Made by a program: the position numbers and the translations under genes. 64,000 nt of DNA from Geodermatophilus sabuli. Lineage in GTDB: Bacteria; Actinomycetota; Actinomycetes; Mycobacteriales; Geodermatophilaceae. The notes under the pieces were generated by a model. It searched no databases. It was not told the origin of the DNA and saw only the letters and a program-made list of their open reading frames with translations. Positions 6,159 through 17,438 of this stretch are shown here, piece after piece. Positions within the stretch are counted from its first letter, which is position 1. The number at the start of each line of letters is the position of its first letter. The DNA is taken from contig NZ_JAAGWF010000008.1 of assembly GCF_010686765.1 (NCBI RefSeq), positions 310,001-374,000 of the forward strand, read 5' to 3'.

Positions 6159-6790
6159 CCGTTGCCGCGACGGACCTCATCGCTCGGTGGACAGGGTCCG
6201 TCGTACCGAGGGCACCGCGAGGTCCCTCGGCAAGCAGGGCCGGACGGCACGCCCGACCGCATGGACGCCAGTCAACACACCGGCAACGGACTTCCGTTCC
6301 AGCCGACTGACGGCCAATGCCGTCCGATGATGAACGCCCTGGCCAACGGGCACTTCCCCCTGCAGCCAACGACGGCCGAGCACGCCATTGACGTTCCGCT
6401 TCAACGTGAGATGCAGCCTGCTCCTGCAGGTCAGCAGCCCCAGGACGCCGCGCCCCCAGGCCTGCGCCGCGACCGGACCGCGCCTCCCAGGCAGCCCTGT
6501 GGACGAGCCGGACTCCAGGACGAGAAGCGCTCGGCGGTCATGCCTGACGAGGGATCCGCAGGTCGCTCCCGCTGAGGGTGCTGACGAGCCTCCAGGTGCA
6601 CGTCACCACGAACTGCAGACCCGAGGTGCGGGAGGTGTGTGCCACTTCGTCCTGCGCTTCTGCAACAGCCCGCCACGTCCAGGTCGGTACCTCCTCGCCG
6701 CGCTCGGGGTCCAGAGAGGCGCGTGGCGGTCAGGCGCTGTTCATGTCACACGGAAGTCACCTGCGGGGACCGCGGGAGCAACACGCACGC
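6159..6790. other. Long intergenic region before the ammonium transporter
   Basis: No convincing gene is visible in these ~630 bases; open frames here have no homology I recognise and irregular codon use. Bases 6393-6408 repeat 16 bases from the end of ychF (3067-3082), and similarity continues weakly for about 26 more bases. GTCAC repeats occur around 6745-6765. Confidence 0.4.
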
Positions 6791-6829
6791 CGTCTACTGC
6801 TGCCGAACAGCGACCACTGTCAGTAGACG
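6791..6829 (+). promoter_or_regulatory. Inverted repeat in the amt leader
   Basis: CGTCTACTG (6791-6799) is a perfect inverted copy of CAGTAGACG (6821-6829), leaving a 21-base loop. The right arm abuts the ribosome site (GAAAGG) of the transporter gene, so a stem here could affect translation, or the repeat could be a protein operator. Confidence 0.45.
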
Positions 6830-6840
6830 AAAGGTGTGCC

Positions 6841-8202
6841 GTGGACGTCGGCAGCACTGCATTCATCCTCGCCGCCACCATGGCGGTCGCACTCATGGTC
6901 CCGGGCCTCGCGCTCTTCTACGGCGGCATGGTCGGGTCCCGCTCGGTCCTCAACATGATCATGATGGTCTTCGGAGCCGTAGCGGTCGTCGGCGTCCTGT
7001 GGACCCTCTTCGGCTTCTCCGCGGTCTTCGGGAACAGCTACGGCGGCCTGGGTCTGCTGGGGGACGTCACCGAGTACCTCGGCCTCGGCGACGTCGTGGC
7101 CGGGGACGAGGCGGCCGCCCTGCCGCCGGCGCTGGTCGCGGTGTTCCAGGCCTTGTTCGCCGTCATCACGACCGCGCTCATCGCCGGCGCGGTGTCCGAC
7201 CGCGTCCGCTTCGGCCCCTGGCTGCTGTTCACCGGGCTCTGGGCGGCGCTGGTCTACTTCCCGGTCGCCCACTGGGTGTTCGCCTTCGATTCGGCCGACG
7301 GCAGCGTCCAGGGCGGCTGGATCGCCAACACCCTCGGCGCGGTCGACTTCGCCGGCGGCACCGCCGTCCACATCAACGCGGGCGTCGCCGCCCTCGCCCT
7401 CGTGCTGGTGGTGGGCAAGCGCACCGGCTGGCCCCGGCAGGCCCGGCCGAACAACCTGCCCCTCGTCGCCCTCGGCGCCGGCATCCTCTGGTTCGGGTGG
7501 TTCGGCTTCAACGGCGGGTCCGCCCTGGCCGCGGGCAACAGCGCCTCGGTCGTCATGCTCACGACGTTCAACGCCACCTGCGCGGCGATCCTCGCCTGGC
7601 TCCTGGTCGAGCGGCTGCGCGACGGGCACGCCACCACCCTCGGCGGCATGTCCGGCGCCATCGCGGGGCTCGTCGCCATCACCCCGGCCTGCGGCGCGGT
7701 CACTCCCCTGGGGGCCCTGGCCGTGGGCGCCATCGCCGGTGCGGTCTGCCCGCTGGCCATCACGCTGAAGTACCGCTTCGGCTACGACGACGCTCTCGAC
7801 GTCGTCGGCGTCCACCTCGTCGGGGGCGTCGTCGGCACCCTGCTGGTCGGCCTGTTCGGCTCGGCCGAGGCGCCCAGCGGCAAGGCGGGCCTGTTCTACG
7901 GCGGCGGGTTCGGGCTCCTCGGCACGCAGGCCGTCGCCGTCGTGGCGGTGGTCGGTTACTCGTTCCTCGTCAGCCTGCTGATCGCCCTCGTCGTCAAGCA
8001 CACGGTGGGCCTGCGGGCGTCGAAGGAGGGCGAGCTCGCCGGTCACGACCTGACCGAGCACGCCGAGGTCGCCTACGACCTCGAGGGCGGCGTGCACACC
8101 CCGGGCAGCGGCCCGACCCCCGAGGCGGTCATCGCCTCGGCCGAACGGCTGGTCGCCGGCTCCGTGGCGGCCCCTCGCACCGGGAGCGGCACGCCGGGCT
8201 GA
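6841..8202 (+). CDS. amt: Ammonium/methylammonium transporter (Amt family)
   Basis: 453 residues from GTG 6841, which follows GAAAGG by 6 bases; the frame is open far upstream but without Amt sequence. Eleven membrane helices typical of the trimeric Amt channel: VPGLALFYGGMV near residue 20, the FAGGTAVHINAG signature near 170, and conserved pore histidines in that segment and in DVVGVHLVGG near 325. The tail after 400 is cytoplasmic and acidic. It imports ammonium and, in many bacteria, methylammonium. It is followed by a strong terminator and faces the methylated-amine genes, which suits nitrogen supply from amines. Confidence 0.93.
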   Translation: MDVGSTAFILAATMAVALMVPGLALFYGGMVGSRSVLNMIMMVFGAVAVVGVLWTLFGFSAVFGNSYGGLGLLGDVTEYLGLGDVVAGDEAAALPPALVAVFQALFAVITTALIAGAVSDRVRFGPWLLFTGLWAALVYFPVAHWVFAFDSADGSVQGGWIANTLGAVDFAGGTAVHINAGVAALALVLVVGKRTGWPRQARPNNLPLVALGAGILWFGWFGFNGGSALAAGNSASVVMLTTFNATCAAILAWLLVERLRDGHATTLGGMSGAIAGLVAITPACGAVTPLGALAVGAIAGAVCPLAITLKYRFGYDDALDVVGVHLVGGVVGTLLVGLFGSAEAPSGKAGLFYGGGFGLLGTQAVAVVAVVGYSFLVSLLIALVVKHTVGLRASKEGELAGHDLTEHAEVAYDLEGGVHTPGSGPTPEAVIASAERLVAGSVAAPRTGSGTPG

Positions 8203-8272: not shown

Positions 8273-8887
8273 TCAGGCCAGGTGGCCGTAGGCCGTCACG
8301 CTGAGGAAGCGGACCGGGAGCTCGACGAGCTCGACCGGGCCGTGCGGTCCCTCGCCGTCGAAGACGAGGGAGTCGCCGGCGCGCATCTCGTAGCGCGCTT
8401 CACCGTGCCCGTAGACCAGGACCCCCTCCAGCATGTGCAGGAACTCCGTCCCCGGGTGCTGGAAGAGCGGGAACACCTCACTGGCCTCGGTGAGGGTGAC
8501 CAGGAGCGGCTCGAGCCGCTTGTGCTCGCCCCGCAGGGACCCCAGCAGTTGGTAGAGGTGCCCGACGTTGCTGCCGCGGCGGACGATCTGCGACCCTTGC
8601 CCGGCAGGCGTGAAGACGGCCTCTCGCTCGGCGTCGATGCCCCGGAACAGCGCGGTGACCGGCACCGCGAGCGCCTCTGCGAGACGGGCGAGGCTCGACA
8701 GGCTGCACGAGGTCTGCGCGTTCTCGATCTTCGACAGCATGGCCTTGCTCATGCCGGTCAGCCGGGCCAGCTCCGCCAGCGAGATGCCCTGGGCGAGCCG
8801 GAACTCCCGGACCCGCAGCGCGATGACGTCCTCGAGATGGCCGCTCGGTGCGTCGTCCTGTGCACCGGGACCGGGGGAGACCTCCAC
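8273..8887 (-). CDS. XRE-cupin transcriptional regulator (PuuR-like)
   Basis: About 204 residues from GTG 8887. Helix-turn-helix at ~25-75 (RVREFRLAQGISLAELARLTGMSKAMLSKIE) and a C-terminal cupin at ~125-200 (QHPGTEFLHMLEGVLVYGHG, with GDSLVFDGEGPHGP). This architecture is found in PuuR and related regulators that sense amines or amino acids. It is divergent from the cupin-dmm operon and is the best candidate to bind the TTCAC-N4-GTGAA sites found before that operon and before the glutamine-synthetase-like gene. The exact start is uncertain because the frame remains open upstream. Confidence 0.85.
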   Translation of the reverse strand: MEVSPGPGAQDDAPSGHLEDVIALRVREFRLAQGISLAELARLTGMSKAMLSKIENAQTSCSLSSLARLAEALAVPVTALFRGIDAEREAVFTPAGQGSQIVRRGSNVGHLYQLLGSLRGEHKRLEPLLVTLTEASEVFPLFQHPGTEFLHMLEGVLVYGHGEARYEMRAGDSLVFDGEGPHGPVELVELPVRFLSVTAYGHLA

Positions 8888-8976
8888 CCGGCGAGCGTAG
8901 GTCGGCTGCGCTCGGCCGAACCGCCCGGCGACGAGAACGTAACGGACGGGTAACCCGAAGGAGGGTCCACCGCTCG

Positions 8977-8982
8977 TAGCCT
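8977..8982 (+). promoter_or_regulatory. -10 box of the cupin-dmm operon
   Basis: TAGCCT, 37 bases before the ATG at 9020. The operator-like sequence at 8987-9000 starts 4 bases after it, over the expected transcription start, an arrangement suited to repression. No convincing -35 box. Confidence 0.4.
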
Positions 8983-8986
8983 CCGT

Positions 8987-9000
8987 TTCACCCCAGTGGA
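8987..9000 (+). promoter_or_regulatory. Operator-like repeat, cupin-dmm promoter
   Basis: TTCAC-CCCA-GTGGA, an inverted repeat with one mismatch. The same element, TTCAC-GCCA-GTGAA, occurs before the glutamine-synthetase-like gene at 11998-12011. In both cases GTAAC lies 36-37 bases upstream of the element and GGAGGACCC precedes the start codon. Confidence 0.55.
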
Positions 9001-9019
9001 CGACTTCCCAGGAGGACCC

Positions 9020-9376
9020 ATGCCCGTCACCGGCACGATCGGCCACGTCACCGGGGGCTCGCTGAAGCTGCCCAGCATGGAGGTGGAGGGGGTGCGCGCG
9101 CACATCGGTGACGTCTTCGCCAACCCCGGCGGGGCGGCGATCTCCAGTGGCTTCTTCGAGCTCTTCGCCGGCGCGCCGCTCGACTACGAGTACACCTACG
9201 ACGAGATGAAGGTCGTCGTCGAGGGCGAGTTCCACCTCACCGACCTCGACTCGGGTCAGCAGGTCGTCGCGCGGCCGAAGGACGTCCTGTACTTCCCCGC
9301 CGGCTCGCGGATCCGCTTCGAGACGCCGGATCGGGCGCTGGGCTTCTACACCGGCCACCGTTCCTTCGCCCCCTGA
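9020..9376 (+). CDS. Small cupin protein (EutQ/DUF861-like)
   Basis: 118 residues forming one cupin domain: strands around FELFAGAPLDYEYTYDEMKVVVEGEF and the second motif with PKDVLYFPAGSRIRFE. AGGAGG lies 5-10 bases before the ATG. It opens the dmm operon and is 6 bases from the next gene. Related cupins accompany amine-utilisation genes; whether it binds metal or the amine, or acts as an enzyme, is unknown. The usual metal histidines are mostly replaced here (Tyr and Asp in the first motif), so a structural or sensing role is possible. Confidence 0.8.
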   Translation: MPVTGTIGHVTGGSLKLPSMEVEGVRAHIGDVFANPGGAAISSGFFELFAGAPLDYEYTYDEMKVVVEGEFHLTDLDSGQQVVARPKDVLYFPAGSRIRFETPDRALGFYTGHRSFAP

Positions 9377-9382
9377 CCGGCC

Positions 9383-9895
9383 GTGGGAGCAGAACACACG
9401 AGCGTCCCGCGCTGGCCGGCCGCCGCGCCGGGCGTGGACCCCGTCGGCCGGACCGTCTCGGTGCTCGGCTTCGGGGACCCGGGCCGGGCGATCGTCCACG
9501 ACTGGGCCGCCGCCACGCCGGCCGGGCGGCTCACCTGGTGTGTCGTCGCGGAGCGGGCCGACGACGCGACGCTGACCGCGCTGGCCGCGCAGGTGCGGAC
9601 CGCCCGGGTCGGCTGGCGGCTGATGCTCGCCGGGCCCGAGGTCGACGTGCTCGCCGCCCGCGCGGTCGCCACCGGCCTCGGCCTCCTCGACGCGGAGATC
9701 CGGACGGCGGTGACCGGCGCGGACCACAAGCGCGTCTCCTGCCCGCACTGCCGCGTCATCACCGAGGCGGAGGTGCCGGTCGGTGCCGAGGTGCCCTGCC
9801 GGGGGTGCGCGCGGCGACTGCACGTGTACGCGCACGTCTCCCGGCGCACCGGGGCCTACCTGGGGTTCATGGCCGACGCGGAGGAGATCGCGTGA
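9383..9895 (+). CDS. dmmA: Dimethylamine monooxygenase subunit DmmA-like
   Basis: 170 residues. The N-terminal ~115 residues are a Rossmann-like domain (VSVLGFGDPGRAIVHDW, WRLMLAGPEVDVLAARA) and the C terminus is a zinc ribbon with Cys120, Cys123, Cys139 and Cys142 (CPHC, CRGC), the known layout of the DmmA family. Dimethylamine monooxygenase oxidises dimethylamine to methylamine and formaldehyde. Its stop overlaps the start of the reductase gene (GTGA), so the subunits are translationally coupled. Confidence 0.85.
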   Translation: MGAEHTSVPRWPAAAPGVDPVGRTVSVLGFGDPGRAIVHDWAAATPAGRLTWCVVAERADDATLTALAAQVRTARVGWRLMLAGPEVDVLAARAVATGLGLLDAEIRTAVTGADHKRVSCPHCRVITEAEVPVGAEVPCRGCARRLHVYAHVSRRTGAYLGFMADAEEIA

Positions 9896-10869
9896 CCGCC
9901 GTCCTGCCCGCACGGCCCGCGACCACGCCGGGCGAGGTCCCGGAGCTGCTGCTCGAGGTCGCGGCCGTCGCGCACGCCGCCGACGGCGTCCGGGCCCTCA
10001 CCCTCCGGCACCCCGACGGCGCCCCGTTGCCCGGCTACGCACCCGGCAGCCACGTGGTGCTCACCTGCGGGGACCGGCGCAACGCCTACTCGCTGACCGG
10101 GGAGGGTGCGCCAGGGGAGGCGTACCGGATCTCGGTGCTGCTCCGCCCCGACGGCCGGGGCGGCTCCGCGTTCGTGCACGGCCTGGCCGTCGGCGACCGG
10201 CTGGCCGTCTCCTGGCCGCGCAGCGCCTTCGCCCCGGTCGCGACGGCGCGGCACCACGTGCTCGTCGCGGGGGGCATCGGGATCACCCCGATGCTGTCGC
10301 ACGCCCGGGCCGCGGTCCGCTGGGGTCGCTCCTTCGAGCTGGTCTACGGCCACCGGCCGGGTGCAGGTGCGCACCGCGAGGAGGTGGCGGCCGTCTGCGG
10401 GGAGCGCCTCACCGTGCACGAGTCGACGCCGGGCATGCTCGACGCCGTCGCCGCGGTGCTCGCCGACCGGCCGATCGGCACGCACGTCTACGTCTGCGGT
10501 CCGGCGCCGCTCATCGACTTCGTCGAGCGGACTGCGGAGGAGCTGGGGTGGCCGGCCGAACGCGTGCACGCCGAGCGGTTCTCCGCCGATCTCGATCCCG
10601 GGGAGCCGTTCACCGCGCACCTGTCCCGCTCCGGCGTCCGGGTGCCCGTCCCTCCGGGCGTCAGCCTGCTCGCGGCGCTGGAGGGCGCCGGGGTCGCCGT
10701 CCCCAGCACGTGCCGCCAGGGCGTCTGCGGGGAGTGCCGAGTCGCGGTGGTCTCCGGTCGCCCGCTGCACCGCGATCTCTACCTCTCCGAGGCCGAGCGC
10801 TCCGCCGGCGACGCGGTCATGTGCTGCGTCTCGCGCAGCCTCGACGACCACCTGGGGCTGGACCTGTGA
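9892..10869 (+). CDS. dmmB: Dimethylamine monooxygenase reductase subunit (PDR/VanB family)
   Basis: 325 residues. A flavin-binding barrel (RNAYSLTGE at about 60), an NAD domain (VAGGIGITPMLSH near 125 and YVCGPAP near 200) and a C-terminal plant-type [2Fe-2S] domain with Cys274, Cys279, Cys282 and a fourth Cys at 311/312. This is the phthalate-dioxygenase-reductase architecture that passes electrons from NAD(P)H to the oxygenase. Overlaps both neighbours by four bases (GTGA). Confidence 0.9.
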   Translation: MTAVLPARPATTPGEVPELLLEVAAVAHAADGVRALTLRHPDGAPLPGYAPGSHVVLTCGDRRNAYSLTGEGAPGEAYRISVLLRPDGRGGSAFVHGLAVGDRLAVSWPRSAFAPVATARHHVLVAGGIGITPMLSHARAAVRWGRSFELVYGHRPGAGAHREEVAAVCGERLTVHESTPGMLDAVAAVLADRPIGTHVYVCGPAPLIDFVERTAEELGWPAERVHAERFSADLDPGEPFTAHLSRSGVRVPVPPGVSLLAALEGAGVAVPSTCRQGVCGECRVAVVSGRPLHRDLYLSEAERSAGDAVMCCVSRSLDDHLGLDL

Positions 10870-11837
10870 CCACGACGCTGCCGCCGCGGGTGGCCCGCTT
10901 CCCGTTCCCCTTCCCGGCCGAGACCTACCGTTACGCGACCAACGTCGAGCCGGCCCGCCGCCCCGTGCGAACCGCCGGGGGGACCTGGGGCGAGCACGTC
11001 GTCGACGTCGACGACGACTACGCCCTCGATATCGCGCTCCGCCGTGCGGTGCTGGCCGCCGACCCCACCCGGTGCGCGCAGCTGCCGCACATGCGCGTCG
11101 CCGCCTGGGACGCGCTGACCACGCTCCTCCCGGAGCTCGCGGCCATCCGTCCGGACGTGGTGGCGCTGCACCGGCGCGGCGACCGGTGGCAGTGGCGCAA
11201 CGACCTGCTCGGGACCTCGTCGTCCTTCGTCCTCGGTGACGACGACTCGGTCCCCGGCGGTCCGCTGGCCTTCCTCGGCAGCCAGGTGCAGGAGGACGTC
11301 GTCCTGCTCGACCAGCGCGAGGGATCGCTGTGGGCCGACGCCGGGCTGGTCACCTTCGCCGCCGACTGGTCGCTCGGGTTCGACGTCGGCATGCGCTTCC
11401 AGGAGGTCCACGGGCCGGTGCCCCGGGTCCACGAGAGCGGGGTGGTCGCCCGCGCCGAGCAGTTCCTCATGCGCCTGCAGCCCGGCGACGCCTACCGCCG
11501 GACCAACTGGACGATGACCGTGGACCGGCGCCTGGACACCTCCACGGAGACCTATCCGGACTGGGGACGGGACCGGAGGCTGGTGGTCGACGATCCCGCG
11601 CTGCCTGACCGGCTGCACCTGCGGGTGGAGGTGCAGCACCTGCTGCGCCTCGGCGTCTCGAACGCCGTCTGCTTCCTCATCCGCACCCACCTGCTGTCCC
11701 TGCGGGAGCTCGCGACCGTCCCCGAGTGGCGGCGGAGGACGGCCGCCGTGCTCTCCGAGCTACCCGACGACATGGCCGCCTACAAGGGCATCGAGCGCTA
11801 CCGGCACGCCGCGGCCAGCTGGCTGGCCGGCGGCTGA
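10866..11837 (+). CDS. dmmC: Heme-dependent oxidative N-demethylase (DUF3445), dimethylamine monooxygenase subunit
   Basis: 323 residues, all one DUF3445 domain. It begins FPFPFPAETYRYATNVEP, as family members do, and carries the conserved LGTSSSFVLGDD, LVTFAADWSLGFDVG, and FLMRLQPGDAYRRTNWTM segments. The family (HODM) uses heme to remove a methyl group from secondary amines. As third gene of a coupled dmm set, it is the probable catalytic subunit. A hairpin follows four bases after the stop. Confidence 0.88.
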   Translation: MTTTLPPRVARFPFPFPAETYRYATNVEPARRPVRTAGGTWGEHVVDVDDDYALDIALRRAVLAADPTRCAQLPHMRVAAWDALTTLLPELAAIRPDVVALHRRGDRWQWRNDLLGTSSSFVLGDDDSVPGGPLAFLGSQVQEDVVLLDQREGSLWADAGLVTFAADWSLGFDVGMRFQEVHGPVPRVHESGVVARAEQFLMRLQPGDAYRRTNWTMTVDRRLDTSTETYPDWGRDRRLVVDDPALPDRLHLRVEVQHLLRLGVSNAVCFLIRTHLLSLRELATVPEWRRRTAAVLSELPDDMAAYKGIERYRHAAASWLAGG

Positions 11838-11841
11838 CCCC

Positions 11842-11866
11842 CGACGGCCCGACCTTCGGCCCGTCG
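11842..11866 (+). terminator. Hairpin after the dmm operon
   Basis: Two 11-base arms (11842-11852 and 11856-11866) pair with one mismatch around a 3-base loop; a second, weaker CCCGCC/GGCGGG hairpin follows. This separates the dmm genes from the next operon, which therefore needs its own promoter. Confidence 0.5.
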
Positions 11867-11976
11867 TCCCGCCCCGGGACGGCGGGCCGCCGTCGTGTCA
11901 CGCGGGTGCCCGGCCCGTGCGACAGGAGGAAACAGGGATCTCCCCGGGCGGTCATCCCGCGGTAACACGCAGCCTG

Positions 11977-12011
11977 TTCACTCCGAGGTGACAGAGATTC
12001 ACGCCAGTGAA
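11977..12011 (+). promoter_or_regulatory. Operator-like repeats before the glutamine-synthetase-like gene
   Basis: TTCAC-GCCA-GTGAA at 11998-12011 is a perfect inverted repeat matching the element before the cupin-dmm operon. A second, looser copy TTCAC-N6-GTGAC lies at 11977-11992. TGTTCACT (11975-11982) is also the exact inverse of AGTGAACA (12006-12013), so the two sites could be bound together. Confidence 0.55.
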
Positions 12012-12035
12012 CACCGCGCAGTCCTGGGAGGACCC

Positions 12036-13394
12036 GTGTCGCTCACCGCCACCCGCCCCGAGGCCCCGCCTGCGCCGGTCGAGCTGCCCTCCGGAGGTGA
12101 GCTGGCCCGCCGAGCCCGCGCTGACGGCATCGAGTTCGTCATGGCGCTGTTCGTCGACCTGACCGGCAAGCCGTGCGCCAAGCTGGTCCCGGTCGAGGCG
12201 GTCGAGGAGCTCGAGAGCGAGGGTGTCGGCTTCGCCGGCTACGCGGTCGGCGCGATGGGGCAGGAGCCCAGCGACCCCGACCTCATGGCGATCCCCGATC
12301 CGTCGTCCTACATGCCGGTGCCCTTCATCCGGCCGGGCCTGGCGATCGTGCACTGCGATCCGCACGTCGAGGGCCGGCCCTGGCCCTACGCGCCCCGGGT
12401 CCTGCTCAAGGCCCAGCTGGCCCGCGCGGCGGAGCTGGGCCTCGAGCTCAAGGTCGGCGCCGAGGTCGAGTACTTCCTCGTCGAGCGCGGCCCGGACGGT
12501 GCGCTGCGGCCGGCGGACCCGAAGGACACCGCGGCCCGGCCCTGCTACGACGCCCGCGGGCTGACCCGCATGTACGACCACCTGACCGAGGTGTCGAAGG
12601 CGATCAACTCGCTGGGCTGGGGCAACTACGCCAACGACCACGAGGACGGCAACGGCCAGTTCGAGCAGAACTTCGCCTACGCCGACGCCCTGACCACCGC
12701 CGACCGGGTGGTCACCCTCCGGTACCTGCTGTCGGTGCTGGCCGAGCAGCGCGGCATGACCGCGACGTTCATGGGCAAGCCGTTCACCGACCGGACCGGC
12801 AGCGGGCTGCACATGCACCTCTCGCTGTGGCGCGGCGGCGAGCCGGCCTTCCCCGACGCGGCCGACCCCCGTGGCCTCGGCCTCTCATCCCTGGCCTACT
12901 CCTTCGTCGCCGGCCTGATCGAGCACGCCTGCGGCCTGCAGGCGGTGCTCGCGCCGACGGTGAACGCCTACAAGCGGACCGGCGCGAGCTCCACGCGGTC
13001 CGGCGCGACGTGGTCCCCGCGCGCGGCGTCCTACGGCGGCAACGACCGCACCCACCTGCTCCGCGTGCCCGACGGCAACCGCGTCGAGCTGCGCGGCGGC
13101 GACGGCTCGGCCAACCCCTACCTCGCCGCCGCGGCGGCACTCGCCGCCGGTTTGGACGGGGTGCGCCGCGGCCTGGACCCCGGTGACCCCGGCGCCACCA
13201 CCAGCAGTCCGCTGCCGCCGACGCTGCTGCACGCCGTCGAGGCGCTGCAGGCCGACCCGGTCGTCGCCGCGGCCCTGGACGCGGCCGGACCCGGGGTCTG
13301 CGAGTACTTCGCCGGCCTCAAGCGCGAGGAGTTCTTCGAGTGGCACGGGCAGGTGACCCCCTGGGAGGTCGACCGCTACGTGACCGCCTTCTGA
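12036..13394 (+). CDS. Glutamine synthetase-like ligase, probable gamma-glutamylmethylamide synthetase (GlnT/GMAS type)
   Basis: 452 residues from GTG 12036, which follows GGGAGG by 6 bases; sequence upstream in frame is not family-like. It has the catalytic glutamine-synthetase fold: KVGAEVEYFLVE with the metal glutamates, the ANDHEDGNGQFEQNF segment, GSGLHMHLSLW, TVNAYKR and RVELRGGDGSANPY. Such short 'type III' enzymes next to N-methylglutamate synthase subunits join glutamate and methylamine using ATP. Ordinary glutamine synthesis cannot be excluded from sequence alone, but the next four genes support the methylamine role. Confidence 0.8.
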   Translation: MSLTATRPEAPPAPVELPSGGELARRARADGIEFVMALFVDLTGKPCAKLVPVEAVEELESEGVGFAGYAVGAMGQEPSDPDLMAIPDPSSYMPVPFIRPGLAIVHCDPHVEGRPWPYAPRVLLKAQLARAAELGLELKVGAEVEYFLVERGPDGALRPADPKDTAARPCYDARGLTRMYDHLTEVSKAINSLGWGNYANDHEDGNGQFEQNFAYADALTTADRVVTLRYLLSVLAEQRGMTATFMGKPFTDRTGSGLHMHLSLWRGGEPAFPDAADPRGLGLSSLAYSFVAGLIEHACGLQAVLAPTVNAYKRTGASSTRSGATWSPRAASYGGNDRTHLLRVPDGNRVELRGGDGSANPYLAAAAALAAGLDGVRRGLDPGDPGATTSSPLPPTLLHAVEALQADPVVAAALDAAGPGVCEYFAGLKREEFFEWHGQVTPWEVDRYVTAF

Positions 13395-13426
13395 CCCGAC
13401 CGACCGACGAGAGGAACCGTCCTGCG

Positions 13427-14320
13427 ATGTGCGGGATCGTCGGGCTCCACCTTCGGGAGCCCTCCCTGTACCCCCGGCTCGGCGAGCTGCTGACCGGCAT
13501 GCTGTGCCAGGTCACCGAGCGCGGTCCGGACTCCGCCGGCGTCGCCGTCTACGGCGACCCCCGGTGGTCGCCGCCCGGTGAGGCGTCGGTCTCGCTGCTC
13601 ACCGGCGCCCGCACGGCCGACGACGTCGCCGCCGCCGTCCGCGTCCTCCTGCCCGAGGCGGGGGTCGTGGACGCCGGCCAGACGCTGGTCGTCCACGCCG
13701 CCGCGCCCCCCGACGCCCTCGTCTCGGCCGTCCGCGACGCCGTCCCCGGTGCCGTGGTCACCGGAGCGGGGGAGGAGGTCGCCGTCCTCAAGGGCGTCGG
13801 GCACCCGCAGTCCCTGGCCGCCGAGTTCGGCCTGCCGGCCGCGCAGGGCTGGCAGGGCGTGGCGCACACGCGGATGGCCACCGAGTCGGCGGTCACCCCC
13901 GCGCACTGCCACCCCTTCTCCGTCGGGACCGACCAGTGCCTGGTGCACAACGGCTCCTTCGCCAACCACGCCACCATCCGCCGCGAACTGCGGGCCGCGG
14001 GTGCGGCCTTCGACAGCGACAACGACTCCGAGGTCGGTGCCCGTTTCGTCGCCGCACAGCTGGCCGCCGGGTACGACCTGGAGAAGTCGCTGAAGCTGCT
14101 GTGCGAGCGCTTCGACGGCTTCTACACGCTGCTGGTCAGCACCCGCGACAGCTTCGCCGTCGTCCGCGACGCCATCGCGTGCAAGCCCGCCGTCGTCGCC
14201 GAGACGCCGCTGTGGGTCGCGATGGCGTCGGAGTACCGCGCCCTGGCCGGCCTGCCCGGCGTCGAGGCCGCACGCATCTTCGAGCCCGAGCCGGAAGAGG
14301 TCTACGCATGGCAGCGCTGA
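13427..14320 (+). CDS. mgsA: Class II glutamine amidotransferase subunit of N-methylglutamate synthase (MgsA/GlxB-like)
   Basis: 297 residues. The start is fixed by MCGIVGL, whose Cys2 is the N-terminal nucleophile; GAGGA lies upstream. The Ntn-hydrolase core shows GWQGVAHTRMATES near 145, HPFSVGTDQCLVHNGSFANH near 165 and DNDSEVGARF near 205. In N-methylglutamate synthase the three separate subunits correspond to the domains of glutamate synthase; this one takes the amide side of the substrate. It overlaps the next gene by 13 bases. Confidence 0.87.
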   Translation: MCGIVGLHLREPSLYPRLGELLTGMLCQVTERGPDSAGVAVYGDPRWSPPGEASVSLLTGARTADDVAAAVRVLLPEAGVVDAGQTLVVHAAAPPDALVSAVRDAVPGAVVTGAGEEVAVLKGVGHPQSLAAEFGLPAAQGWQGVAHTRMATESAVTPAHCHPFSVGTDQCLVHNGSFANHATIRRELRAAGAAFDSDNDSEVGARFVAAQLAAGYDLEKSLKLLCERFDGFYTLLVSTRDSFAVVRDAIACKPAVVAETPLWVAMASEYRALAGLPGVEAARIFEPEPEEVYAWQR

Positions 14321-15027
14321 GCACGTCCGACGTCGCGGTGGAGCCGGCCGTCGTCGACCTCTCCTTCACCGGCGTGCGCGAGCTCAACGCGGCCCTGCAC
14401 GCCCCGGACGTCGCGGACAAGGCGTCCGCGTGGCGGGTCACCTCGCCCGCCGGGCGGCACAGCATCGCCGTCGGGCTCGACGCAGAGGTCGACGTCCGCA
14501 TCGAGGGGCACGTCGGCTACTACTGCGCCGGCATGAACCAGCTGGCGACGGTGACCGTCGAGGGCAACGCCGGAGTCGGCGTGGCCGAGAACATGATGAG
14601 CGGCACGGTGCGGGTCCGCGGCAACGCCTCCCAGTCGGCCGGGGCGACGGCGCACGGCGGCCTGCTCGTGGTCGAGGGGTCGGCCTCGGCCCGCTGCGGC
14701 ATCTCGATGAAGGGCGTGGACATCGTCGTCGGCGGCGACGTCGGCCACATGAGCGCGTTCATGGGCCAGGCCGGCCGGCTGGTCGTCTGCGGCGACGCCG
14801 GCGACGCCCTCGGCGACTCCGTCTACGAGGCCCGGATCTACGTCGCCGGAGCGGTGAAGAGCCTCGGCGCTGACTGCGTCGAGAAGGAGGTGCGGCCCGA
14901 GCACCTGGCCGAGCTCGCCGGCCTGCTGCACGCGGCCGGCATCGACGCCGACGCGACGTCCTTCCGGCGCTACGGCTCGGCCCGCCGTCTCTACAACTTC
15001 CACGTCGACAACGCCTCGGCGTACTGA
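14308..15027 (+). CDS. mgsB: GXGXG-domain subunit of N-methylglutamate synthase (MgsB/GlxC-like)
   Basis: 239 residues. The middle is the right-handed beta-helix of the glutamate-synthase C-terminal (GXGXG) domain, with regularly spaced GNAGVGVAENMMSGTVRVRGNAS and GGDVGHMSAFMGQAG turns. In glutamate synthase this part is structural and shapes the ammonia tunnel. Start ATG 14308 lies inside the end of the preceding gene, indicating translational coupling; nine bases separate it from the next gene. Confidence 0.87.
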   Translation: MAALSTSDVAVEPAVVDLSFTGVRELNAALHAPDVADKASAWRVTSPAGRHSIAVGLDAEVDVRIEGHVGYYCAGMNQLATVTVEGNAGVGVAENMMSGTVRVRGNASQSAGATAHGGLLVVEGSASARCGISMKGVDIVVGGDVGHMSAFMGQAGRLVVCGDAGDALGDSVYEARIYVAGAVKSLGADCVEKEVRPEHLAELAGLLHAAGIDADATSFRRYGSARRLYNFHVDNASAY

Positions 15028-15036
15028 GGGGGAGCA

Positions 15037-16341
15037 GTGCTCAGGGAATCCGCGACCTTCGACCGCGCCACCATCGCCGAGATCCAGCGCGCCGCCGAGA
15101 CCGGCATCTACGACATCCGCGGCGGCGGCGCCAAGCGCCGCGTCCCGCACTTCGACGACCTGCTCTTCCTGGGCGCGAGCATGTCCCGGTACCCGCTCGA
15201 GGGCTACCGCGAGCGCTGCGACACCGACGTCGTCCTCGGTGACCGCCACGCCACCTACCCGCTGCACCTGTCGACCCCCGTGACCATCGCCGGCATGAGC
15301 TTCGGCGCCCTGTCGGGCCGCGCGAAGGAGGCACTGGGCCGCGGGGCCAGCGAGGTGGGTACGAGCACCACCACCGGCGACGGCGGCATGACGCCCGAGG
15401 AGCGCGGACAGTCCAAGCACCTCGTCTACCAGTACCTGCCCTCCCGTTACGGCATGAACCCCGACCACCTGCGGGCAGCGGACGCCATCGAGGTCGTCCT
15501 CGGGCAGGGCGCCAAGCCCGGTGGCGGCGGCATGCTCCTCGGCCAGAAGATCACCGAGCGGGTGGCCGGGATGCGCACCCTGCCCATGGGCGTCGACCAG
15601 CGCAGCGCCTGCCGGCACCCCGACTGGACAGGTCCCGACGACCTGGAGATCAAGATCGGTGAACTCCGCGAGATCACCGACTGGGAGAAGCCGATCTACG
15701 TCAAGATCGGTGCCAGCCGCACCTACTACGACGTGAAACTGGCGGCCAAGGCCGGCGCCGACGTCATCGTGCTCGACGGCATGCAGGGCGGCACCGCGGC
15801 CACGCAGGACGTCTTCATCGAGCACGTCGGCATCCCGACGCTCGCGGCGCTGCCGCAGGCGGTGCAGGCGCTGCAGGAGGAGGGGCTGCACCGGCAGGTG
15901 CAGCTGGTCGTCTCGGGCGGCATCCGCAACGGCGCCGACGTCGCCAAGTGCATGGCGCTGGGTGCCGACGCCGTCGCCATCGGGACGGCGGCGCTGGTCG
16001 CCCTGGGCGACAACTCCCCGCACCTCGACGAGGAGTACCGGGCGCTGGGCTCGGCGGCCGGCTTCTACGACGACTGGCAGGCCGGCCGCGACCCGGCAGG
16101 CATCACGACGCAGGACGACGAGCTCGCGGCCCGACTCGACCCGGTCGCCGGCGGCCGGCGGCTGGCCAACCTCATCCGCGTCATGACCATGGAGGCACAG
16201 GTGATCGCCCGGGCCTGCGGCAAGGCGCACCTGCACTCGCTGGAGCCCGAGGACCTGGTGGCGCTCACCATCGAGGCCGCCGCGATGGCCCGGGTGCCGC
16301 TGGCGGGCACGTCGTGGATCCCCGGGCAGGGCGGGCTGTGA
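15037..16341 (+). CDS. mgsC: FMN-binding synthase subunit of N-methylglutamate synthase (MgsC/GlxD-like)
   Basis: 434 residues from GTG 15037 behind GGGGGAG. It is the FMN-binding TIM barrel of glutamate synthase: PVTIAGMSFGALSGRAKEALGRGA near 85, TTTGDGGMTPEE near 110, KIGASRTYYDVKLAAKAGADVIVLDGMQGGTAA near 225-260 and VSGGIRNGADVAKCMALGADAVAIGTA near 290-315. This subunit would make N-methylglutamate from the methylamide product. Its stop overlaps the GTG of the oxidase gene. Confidence 0.9.
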   Translation: MLRESATFDRATIAEIQRAAETGIYDIRGGGAKRRVPHFDDLLFLGASMSRYPLEGYRERCDTDVVLGDRHATYPLHLSTPVTIAGMSFGALSGRAKEALGRGASEVGTSTTTGDGGMTPEERGQSKHLVYQYLPSRYGMNPDHLRAADAIEVVLGQGAKPGGGGMLLGQKITERVAGMRTLPMGVDQRSACRHPDWTGPDDLEIKIGELREITDWEKPIYVKIGASRTYYDVKLAAKAGADVIVLDGMQGGTAATQDVFIEHVGIPTLAALPQAVQALQEEGLHRQVQLVVSGGIRNGADVAKCMALGADAVAIGTAALVALGDNSPHLDEEYRALGSAAGFYDDWQAGRDPAGITTQDDELAARLDPVAGGRRLANLIRVMTMEAQVIARACGKAHLHSLEPEDLVALTIEAAAMARVPLAGTSWIPGQGGL

Positions 16342-17438
16342 AGGTCGACGTCGCCGTCGTCGGCGCCGGCCTCATGGGCGCGGCGACGGCGTGGCAGCTC
16401 GCCCGGCGCGGGGTGTCCGTGGCCCTGGTCGAGGCGTTCGACGCGGGGCACGTGCACGGCAGCTCGCACGGCACGTCCCGCATCGTGCGCCGCGCCTACG
16501 CCGACCCGTTCTGGGTGCGCCTGACCGGCCGCGCGTACGACGCCTGGGCCGAGGCCGAGGACGACACCGGCACGGCACTGCTGCGCACCACCGGCGGCCT
16601 CGACACCGGCGCCCGCCGCGACCCCGTGGGGCTGGCCCGGCTGATGGCCGCCGAGGGCGTGCCGCACGAGCTGCTGACGGCGGGAGAGGCGGAGGCCCGC
16701 TGGCCGGGGATGCGCTTCGACGGCTCGGTCCTCTTCCACCCCGAGGGAGCCGTGCTCGACGCCGACGCCGCGGTCGCCGCCTGGGTGCGGCGCGTGCGCG
16801 AGCTCCGCGGGACCGTGCTCGAGCGCACCCGCGTGCTCGCCGTGGAACCCGACGGAGGCGGCGCGCGGGTGGTCACCGACGGGCCCGAGCTGGCGGCGGG
16901 CAGCGTCGTCGTCGCGGCCGGGCCGTGGCTCCCGGAGCTGCCGCTCGGCCTCCCGCTCCCACCCCTCACCGTGACCCAGCAGCAGGTCTTCCACTTCCGG
17001 CAGCTCGACCCCGCCGCCGTCTGGCCGACGTTCGTGCACAAGGGCGACCTGCAGCTGTTCGGCCTGCCCTCCGGCGCCGACGGCGGCCCGCGCCCGGCGG
17101 TGAAGGTCGCCCAGCACGACGGTGGCCGGCCGACGACGGCGTCCACCCGGGACGGCGTGGTCGACCCGGCCTCGCGTGAGCGGGTCACCGCTTTCGTGCG
17201 GGCGTGGCTGCCCGGCCTCGAACCGGAGCCCATCGCGCAGGGCAGTTGCCTGTACACCGTCACCCCGGACGAGGACTTCGTGCTCGACCGAGTCGGCCCC
17301 GTCGTCGTCGCGTCACCGTGCTCCGGGCACGGCGCCAAGTTCGCCGCCCTGATCGGTCGCATGGCCGCCGCCCTCGCCCTCGGCGAGGCGGAGCCAGAAC
17401 CGAGGTTCGCGCTGAGCCGGGTGGGCTCACTCGTGTGA
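16338..17438 (+). CDS. FAD-dependent N-methyl amino acid oxidase (MSOX/MTOX family), candidate N-methylglutamate oxidase
   Basis: 366 residues, close to monomeric sarcosine oxidase (~390). The dinucleotide motif VVGAGLMGAATAWQLARRG is at residues 6-24; Cys304 in GSCLYTVTPDEDFVLD sits where monomeric sarcosine and N-methyltryptophan oxidases link FAD covalently; SPCSGHGAKFA follows as in the family. It overlaps mgsC by four bases and closes the operon. The position makes N-methylglutamate the likely substrate, giving glutamate, formaldehyde and hydrogen peroxide, in place of the usual four-subunit dehydrogenase (inference). Confidence 0.82.
   Translation: MKVDVAVVGAGLMGAATAWQLARRGVSVALVEAFDAGHVHGSSHGTSRIVRRAYADPFWVRLTGRAYDAWAEAEDDTGTALLRTTGGLDTGARRDPVGLARLMAAEGVPHELLTAGEAEARWPGMRFDGSVLFHPEGAVLDADAAVAAWVRRVRELRGTVLERTRVLAVEPDGGGARVVTDGPELAAGSVVVAAGPWLPELPLGLPLPPLTVTQQQVFHFRQLDPAAVWPTFVHKGDLQLFGLPSGADGGPRPAVKVAQHDGGRPTTASTRDGVVDPASRERVTAFVRAWLPGLEPEPIAQGSCLYTVTPDEDFVLDRVGPVVVASPCSGHGAKFAALIGRMAAALALGEAEPEPRFALSRVGSLV

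Follow-up and report, generated by a model that had tools for sequence, protein, structure and literature searches.

Gene content and layout of the cluster

A 64,000-nucleotide stretch of the Geodermatophilus sabuli genome (positions 310001-374000 of contig C60, hereafter the window; genome G000, 99.99% complete) was found to hold a gene cluster for the N-methylglutamate (NMG) pathway, a major route of methylamine use in bacteria. The cluster is read here, at a probability of about 0.8, as a complete dimethylamine-to-glutamate route in which a single-chain oxidase of 366 residues would demethylate NMG as the last step. Window genes were assigned by using Pfam and NCBIfam profiles, with MgsA, MgsB, and MgsC named by domain (GATase_6, GXGXG, and Glu_synthase) and order. 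The genes run as amt, a divergent XRE-cupin regulator, an EutQ-like cupin, dmmA, dmmB, DUF3445/HODM (haem-dependent oxidative N-demethylase), gmaS, mgsA, mgsB, mgsC, and an oxidase gene resembling monomeric sarcosine oxidase (MSOX) (Table 1).

The original prediction, made from the letters of the window, had named dmmA-dmmB-DUF3445, a GmaS-type ligase, mgsABC, an MSOX-like oxidase, and a neighbouring Amt transporter, and all of these were borne out by the profiles. Its description of the genes as nearly all overlapping was slightly strong. After starts were checked, overlaps remained at four of the seven gene boundaries between dmmA and the oxidase gene (dmmA/dmmB, dmmB/HODM, mgsA/mgsB, and mgsC/oxidase, the last by 4 bp), and gaps of 198, 32, and 9 bp lie between HODM and gmaS, gmaS and mgsA, and mgsB and mgsC, respectively. 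The span assigned to the pathway there, 8273-17438, begins with the XRE-cupin regulator on the minus strand, a gene left unnamed in its text.

Table 1 Features of the cluster, with positions given in the window
Feature	Position	Strand	Supporting matches
Amt-family ammonium/methylammonium transporter	6388..8202	+	PF00909 5.9e-113, residues 158-563; TIGR00836 above cut-off
XRE-cupin regulator, divergent	8273..8887	-	HTH_3/HTH_31 and Cupin_2
EutQ-like cupin, 118 aa	9020..9376	+	PF06249 1.1e-10
DmmA-like subunit of dimethylamine monooxygenase	9383..9895	+	PF22289 2.5e-13; NF041259 6.8e-33, 113 bits (cut-off 60)
DmmB-like reductase subunit with 2Fe-2S domain	9892..10869	+	PF22290 5e-17; Fer2 1.2e-13
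Haem-dependent oxidative N-demethylase-like subunit (DUF3445, now HODM_asu-like)	10866..11837	+	PF11927 4e-61
GmaS, gamma-glutamylmethylamide synthetase	12036..13394	+	TIGR03105 601 bits (cut-off 470)
MgsA, N-methylglutamate synthase amidotransferase-like (class-II) subunit	13427..14320	+	GATase_6 2e-15
MgsB, GXGXG subunit	14308..15027	+	PF01493 1.9e-10
MgsC, glutamate-synthase-like flavin mononucleotide (FMN) subunit (Glu_synthase)	15037..16341	+	PF01645 5.5e-91
Single-chain MSOX-like (DAO) oxidase, family A, 366 aa; proposed N-methylglutamate oxidase	16338..17438	+	7exs 1.7e-52 (best match in the PDB); MSOX 1.3e-40

The ligase scored above the TIGR03105 cut-off and carries the active-site residues of GmaS rather than those of glutamine synthetase (GS). 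When the alignment was read by eye, K49, A67, E210, and W326 corresponded to Lys30, Ala48, Glu186, and Trp300 of the Rhodovulum enzyme (RhGmaS), with a 20-residue numbering offset taken from the loop Pro292-Trp300; the residues that separate GmaS from GS are those given in the accessible part of PMC7948447. Its nearest PDB entries are 7cql, listed as a type III glutamate-ammonia ligase and identifiable from the same part of that paper as its GmaS, and 9qur, a glutamate-methylamine ligase. Domains and relatives identify MgsABC as a three-subunit synthase. For the window MgsC, identity reaches 96% with its counterparts in sister clusters and lies at 81-85% with the proteobacterial copies compared, and the nearest named MgsC is that of a Modestobacter. 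DmmA, DmmB, and DUF3445/HODM are encoded together, as a dimethylamine monooxygenase. This overlapping block (DmmA-like, DmmB-like reductase, and DUF3445) is shared with the DmmDABC or haem-dependent oxidative N-demethylase systems, but here it is actinobacterial and joined to gmaS-mgsABC-oxidase.

Conserved residues and predicted fold of the oxidase

The 19 mgs-linked oxidases of this type (family A, or A-type) were aligned, and H45, R49, R52, K265, C315, and K348 (MSOX numbering) were identical in all 19; the window equivalents of R52, K265, C315, and K348 are R51, K256, C304, and K334. We take Lys265 of MSOX to be the O2-activating site, and R52 and K348 are presumably the binders of the substrate carboxylate. 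The predicted DAO fold and the cysteine equivalent to C315, the site of covalent flavin adenine dinucleotide (FAD), place the protein in this family, and it probably carries covalent FAD. Other sites are less strict: 15 of the 19 retain H269, Tyr at position 317 (15 proteins) gives way to Phe in 4, and Tyr at position 254 (14 proteins) gives way to Phe in 5.

An AlphaFold2 model built from 12 sequences (predicted local distance difference test, pLDDT, 88.6; predicted template modelling score, pTM, 0.89) had sarcosine oxidases, NikD, and N-methyltryptophan oxidase (MTOX) as its best Foldseek matches, with query-based template modelling scores (TMq) of 0.89 to 7exs, about 0.90 to MSOX, and 0.88 to MTOX. 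The oxidase resembles the MSOX/MTOX/NikD family in fold, length, FAD motif, covalent-FAD cysteine, and catalytic Arg/His/Lys, but is only 26-36% identical to its members (Foldseek: 7exs, MSOX, NikD, and MTOX) and falls outside the MSOX plus MTOX branch in a wider tree. Scores of 241.6 bits against the NCBIfam N-methyltryptophan oxidase model PRK11259 (cut-off 257, just missed) and 221.4 bits against the monomeric sarcosine oxidase model TIGR01377 (cut-off 479.65, well missed) indicate kinship at family level and membership of neither named subfamily.

Clade-specific changes in MSOX numbering are F347 to A, F342 to C, A340 to S, F256 to L, and E247 to K. The group-defining positions in the window oxidase are A333 (Phe in 22/22 outside rows), C328, S326, L243, H219, and K235, where both MSOX and MTOX have Glu. 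The reduced residue size around K348 and the reversed charge would be in keeping with a substrate whose side chain is longer and acidic. These residues were set aside as proof of a gamma-carboxylate site, with K235 (17/19) and H219 (18/19) kept as candidates only.

Search for N-methylglutamate dehydrogenase elsewhere in the genome

The whole genome was searched for mgdABCD, the genes of the four-subunit enzyme that ends the pathway in Methyloversatilis, Methylocella, and Pseudomonas C5pp. That type of pathway has gmaS, mgsABC, and the pathway logic in common with the window, with amt and the XRE-cupin regulator as frequent neighbours, but closes with four SoxBDAG-like subunits where the window has one MSOX-type chain without a folate domain. 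The search, which the original prediction had suggested as a check, yielded one soxBDAG operon, of sarcosine type by sequence and in a betaine-type locus. The genome's only SoxD (PF04267) is encoded on contig C1, within the gene order glyA-soxB-soxD-soxA-soxG-DMGDH-like-sdaA, and a Rieske oxygenase beside glyA is most like GbcA, although under that model's cut-off; the locus reads as a putative betaine-to-serine route. The genome's SoxB shares 77% identity with its counterpart in 1vrq, a heterotetrameric sarcosine oxidase of known crystal structure, and 42-46% with 26 mgs-linked proteobacterial MgdA. From these identities and the locus context, the operon was assigned as sarcosine oxidase and rejected as MgdABCD, and a four-subunit MgdABCD was not found as last enzyme in this genome.

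The window was predicted to lack mgd genes, and this stood: the one SoxD is on contig C1, none of the genome's 14 GCV_T-domain matches is on contig C60, and no SoxD-, SoxA-, or SoxG-type partner subunit lies beside the oxidase in the window. The GCV_T matches are spread over contigs C1, C11, C15, C16, C17, and C74, and one of them is a vanillate/3-O-methylgallate O-demethylase (L011:15952-17373), so that the genome is, judged by these domains, rich in folate-linked demethylation. Two GcvT matches (G000:C11:32165-32935 and C17:13197-13967) score identically and are perhaps a duplicated or redundant assembly stretch.

Genomic surveys of the gene after mgsC

Two surveys were made. In the order survey, 397 genomes were searched, mgsC was found at E ≤ 1e-90 in 37, and 36 stretches around mgsC were compared together with the window. 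The named set comprised the best 80 of 560 mgsC loci (40 Actinobacteria and 40 Proteobacteria), for which 10 kb around mgsC was scanned at thresholds of E ≤ 1e-8 for an A match, ≥ 45% identity for family B (a second single-chain DAO-family flavoprotein), and ≥ 40% identity for SoxB; some stretches end at contig ends. Fisher tests on the named-set counts took related genomes as separate cells, and the resulting values therefore overstate independence; the two surveys also share some genomes.

In the order survey, 7 of the 37 genomes, from five families and with the window counted, have an A-type oxidase gene after mgsC (a regulator gene intervenes in L099, and about 550 bp in L072). Family B occupies the slot after mgsC in 24 and lies elsewhere in 5 more (2 of them inside the fetched stretch), so that 36/37 carry either A linked to mgsC or B at some place in the genome. 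The exception, G283, was kept in the denominators: its MgsC is 56% identical, its GS-like match 35%, and an MSOX-like gene at 29% lies near mgsC on the other strand. Among the named Actinobacteria, 11 loci have A, 26 have B, 3 have neither, and 0/40 have an mgd-type SoxB match. The named Proteobacteria divide into 26 with mgd-type genes and 14 with neither; none has A or B, the family B match of L165 being weak (27%, below threshold). The 14 blanks fit the distant mgd of Pseudomonas C5pp, 37.7 kb from gmaS-mgsABC according to the available text of PMC8292978. The three actinobacterial blanks have B (two) or A (one, unlinked, 48%) elsewhere, and in all eight Actinobacteria at first without a nearby A or B (five from the order survey, three named) a genome-wide search found B in seven and A in one. 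Every actinobacterial mgs-bearing genome examined, bar one outlier, thus has a linked A, or B or A somewhere.

SoxD is missing from 25 of the 37 order-survey genomes (3 of the 7 A-type among them), from 30 of the 40 named Actinobacteria (genome completeness unstated), and from 7/18 A-type genomes across both surveys, and is present in 10/10 proteobacterial controls, drawn from the 26 mgd-bearing loci. All 12 SoxD-bearing actinobacterial genomes of the order survey have a SoxB of sarcosine type; the other 11 are 73-90% identical to the one in this genome, 74-78% to 1vrq, and 43-46% to an MgdA.

Family B is 24-30% identical to SoxB, with 1y56_B and SoxB chains as its nearest PDB entries. It was found at L084, L070, L073, and 47 further loci, mostly right after mgsC (motif TGKSSGIVRCHYGVSSLAAM), and in 31/397 genomes of the order, 29 of which have mgsC. 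Leu stands at the MSOX Lys265 column of its alignment and Gly at the Cys315 column, and for this reason family B may consist of dehydrogenases, not oxidases.

Exchange of A and B was followed on an MgsC tree (95 rows; a quick method with many weakly supported forks and with the Shimodaira-Hasegawa-like approximate likelihood ratio test, SH-aLRT, as the sole support measure). A branch (93) has the mgd-linked rows as one of its sides. For gene DISPLACEMENT, A versus B needs at least six changes on this tree, two of them forced by starred branches. Within the window's family, one MgsC branch (99) unites the window with five members at 95-96% identity, of which B occurs with 4/6 and A with 2/6, including the window; almost the same upstream enzymes thus feed either enzyme family. 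Linkage as a one-off of the window was rejected, since A or B lies at most actinobacterial mgs loci in both surveys. Linkage, the exchange of A and B, the missing Mgd-type genes, the conserved residues, and the fold all sustained the proposal that a single oxidase replaces Mgd, but the arrangement is not peculiar to the window.

Weighing the assignment

In the wider oxidase tree, from which the long-branched row L105 was omitted, all 19 mgs-linked proteins fell into one clade of 29 (100/100), and the smallest starred group containing the window oxidase had nine rows, 9/9 mgs-linked (98/95). A clade exclusive to mgs clusters (19/21 linked in the first tree) was given up when wider sampling gave 19/29.

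Several observations weigh against an NMG-specific last step. The 10 unlinked clade members include L203:8768-9928, L202:8926-10080, and L208:8971-10068, with neighbours for proline dehydrogenase (L202, L203), aldehyde dehydrogenase (L203, L208), proline racemase (L203), and a GntR regulator; these proteins may demethylate N-methylproline in stachydrine catabolism. Five others, from one family, have no mgs, gmaS, or dmm matches in the stretches compared, and one of them (L210) is flanked by helicase and peptidase genes. For these reasons the clade as a whole is not NMG-specific; it appears to gather oxidases that act on N-methyl amino acids, with one line serving NMG, and for the window protein we infer this specificity. 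An A-like protein (E ≤ 1e-65) is encoded in 36 genomes, and 27 of these lack mgsC. The dmm genes are present in 0/18 other A-type loci compared (the L072 stretch starts at mgsC), which leaves the window as the only one of the A-type loci compared with the full dimethylamine-to-glutamate-plus-A arrangement, and mgsC is missing in all 17 same-genus genomes listed, making the cluster accessory. NMG might also be turned over, as a secondary substrate, by the products of the genome's own soxBDAG operon.

That operon could also be the real NMG dehydrogenase, leaving the MSOX-like gene to demethylate sarcosine or another N-methyl amino acid. Distant mgdABCD homologues were given this role in the methylamine islands of Mycobacterium sp. 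141/155 (McTaggart et al. 2015, accessible part of PMC5023230), which have a gma-mgsABC cluster in common with the window. The surveyed mycobacterial clusters, from other strains, differ from that assignment in having family B by mgsC. The betaine-type gene order, the SoxB identities, and the many mgs-bearing genomes without SoxD all speak against this explanation, and we regard it as highly improbable. Electrons might instead pass to quinone or another acceptor rather than O2, with the oxidase closing the pathway as a dehydrogenase; MgdABCD and many DAO-family proteins are dehydrogenases, and residues alone are no proof of O2 reactivity. The Lys265 equivalent is nevertheless invariant in the linked oxidases, and the first gene 3' of the oxidase in the window is of sigma-70/SnoaL type on the opposite strand, not an electron-transfer partner, so a dehydrogenase was considered unlikely. 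The ligase-synthase-oxidase set could also serve ethylamine or another alkylamine, with the oxidase cleaving N-alkylglutamates: Rhodovulum GmaS takes ethylamine and others, and oxidase-clade members occur in other loci. Methylamine nevertheless gives the lowest Km of that enzyme (both points from the available text of PMC7948447), the window's dimethylamine monooxygenase would yield methylamine, and its GmaS keeps the four residues read. We hold this explanation to be quite improbable.

Among the matches listed in open-access literature, no single-chain N-methylglutamate oxidase or NMG end enzyme was found, an absence that holds for open-access papers and is not established overall. In SAR11, soxBDAG paralogues were assigned, and a monomeric sarcosine oxidase is mentioned only beside betaine genes in the accessible part of PMC3160333.

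Neighbouring genes

The Amt gene is present in 34/69 loci compared (window counted), and its real start is probably downstream of the first start codon. Homologues of the XRE-cupin regulator adjoin mgs clusters whether these are A-type, B-type, or proteobacterial, and it is likely a pathway-specific regulator. The small EutQ-like cupin adjoins methylated-amine monooxygenase genes in the window and several other loci, a proximity also pointed out in the accessible part of PMC5023230. Two dmm-type sets stand in tandem near gmaS-mgsABC in L073, L085, L093, L133, and L139. A Peptidase M20-family protein is encoded near mgs clusters at L072:2968-4182 and 11 other loci (3 A and 9 B), and may release amines upstream of the pathway.

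Proposed pathway and implications

In the proposed route, Dmm/HODM would convert dimethylamine to methylamine and formaldehyde, GmaS would join methylamine to glutamate with ATP, and MgsABC would transfer the methylamino group to 2-oxoglutarate, yielding NMG. The 366-residue oxidase would then turn NMG, O2, and water into glutamate, formaldehyde, and H2O2, one chain doing the four-subunit job of MgdABCD minus the folate (GCV_T) domain. MSOX-type enzymes use O2 and make H2O2 and formaldehyde, and with the key MSOX residues kept, the enzyme probably releases peroxide and free formaldehyde; without a GCV_T domain, methylene-folate would not be made on the chain and formaldehyde should leave free. 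The sequences themselves show the genes, with their order, family, conserved residues, and co-occurrence, and the lack of Mgd-type genes; substrate, flavinylation, O2 as acceptor, and free formaldehyde are inferred. The formaldehyde could be handled by the genome's mycothiol-dependent formaldehyde dehydrogenase homologue (75% identical, on another contig). An S-(hydroxymethyl)mycothiol dehydrogenase gene occurs in 4/69 loci compared, and on a Streptomyces plasmid it directly follows mgsC and an A-type oxidase gene.

Across Actinobacteria, it is probable that the NMG pathway ends in a single-chain flavoprotein, either A or B, which replace each other in one slot, that Mgd is proteobacterial, and that Gram-positive "mgdABCD" genes encode sarcosine oxidases. 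Family B is a DAO family without characterised members, and proline-dehydrogenase and SoxB beta chains come nearest to it. If this reading is true, much of a phylum would have a different last enzyme in the NMG pathway, with peroxide and free formaldehyde as by-products versus folate-bound carbon and, for the A-type, a last step that strictly needs oxygen. Pathway annotation would be corrected for mycobacteria, nocardiae, streptomycetes, and relatives, and two small single-chain candidates would be available for engineering methylamine or N-methylglutamate use.

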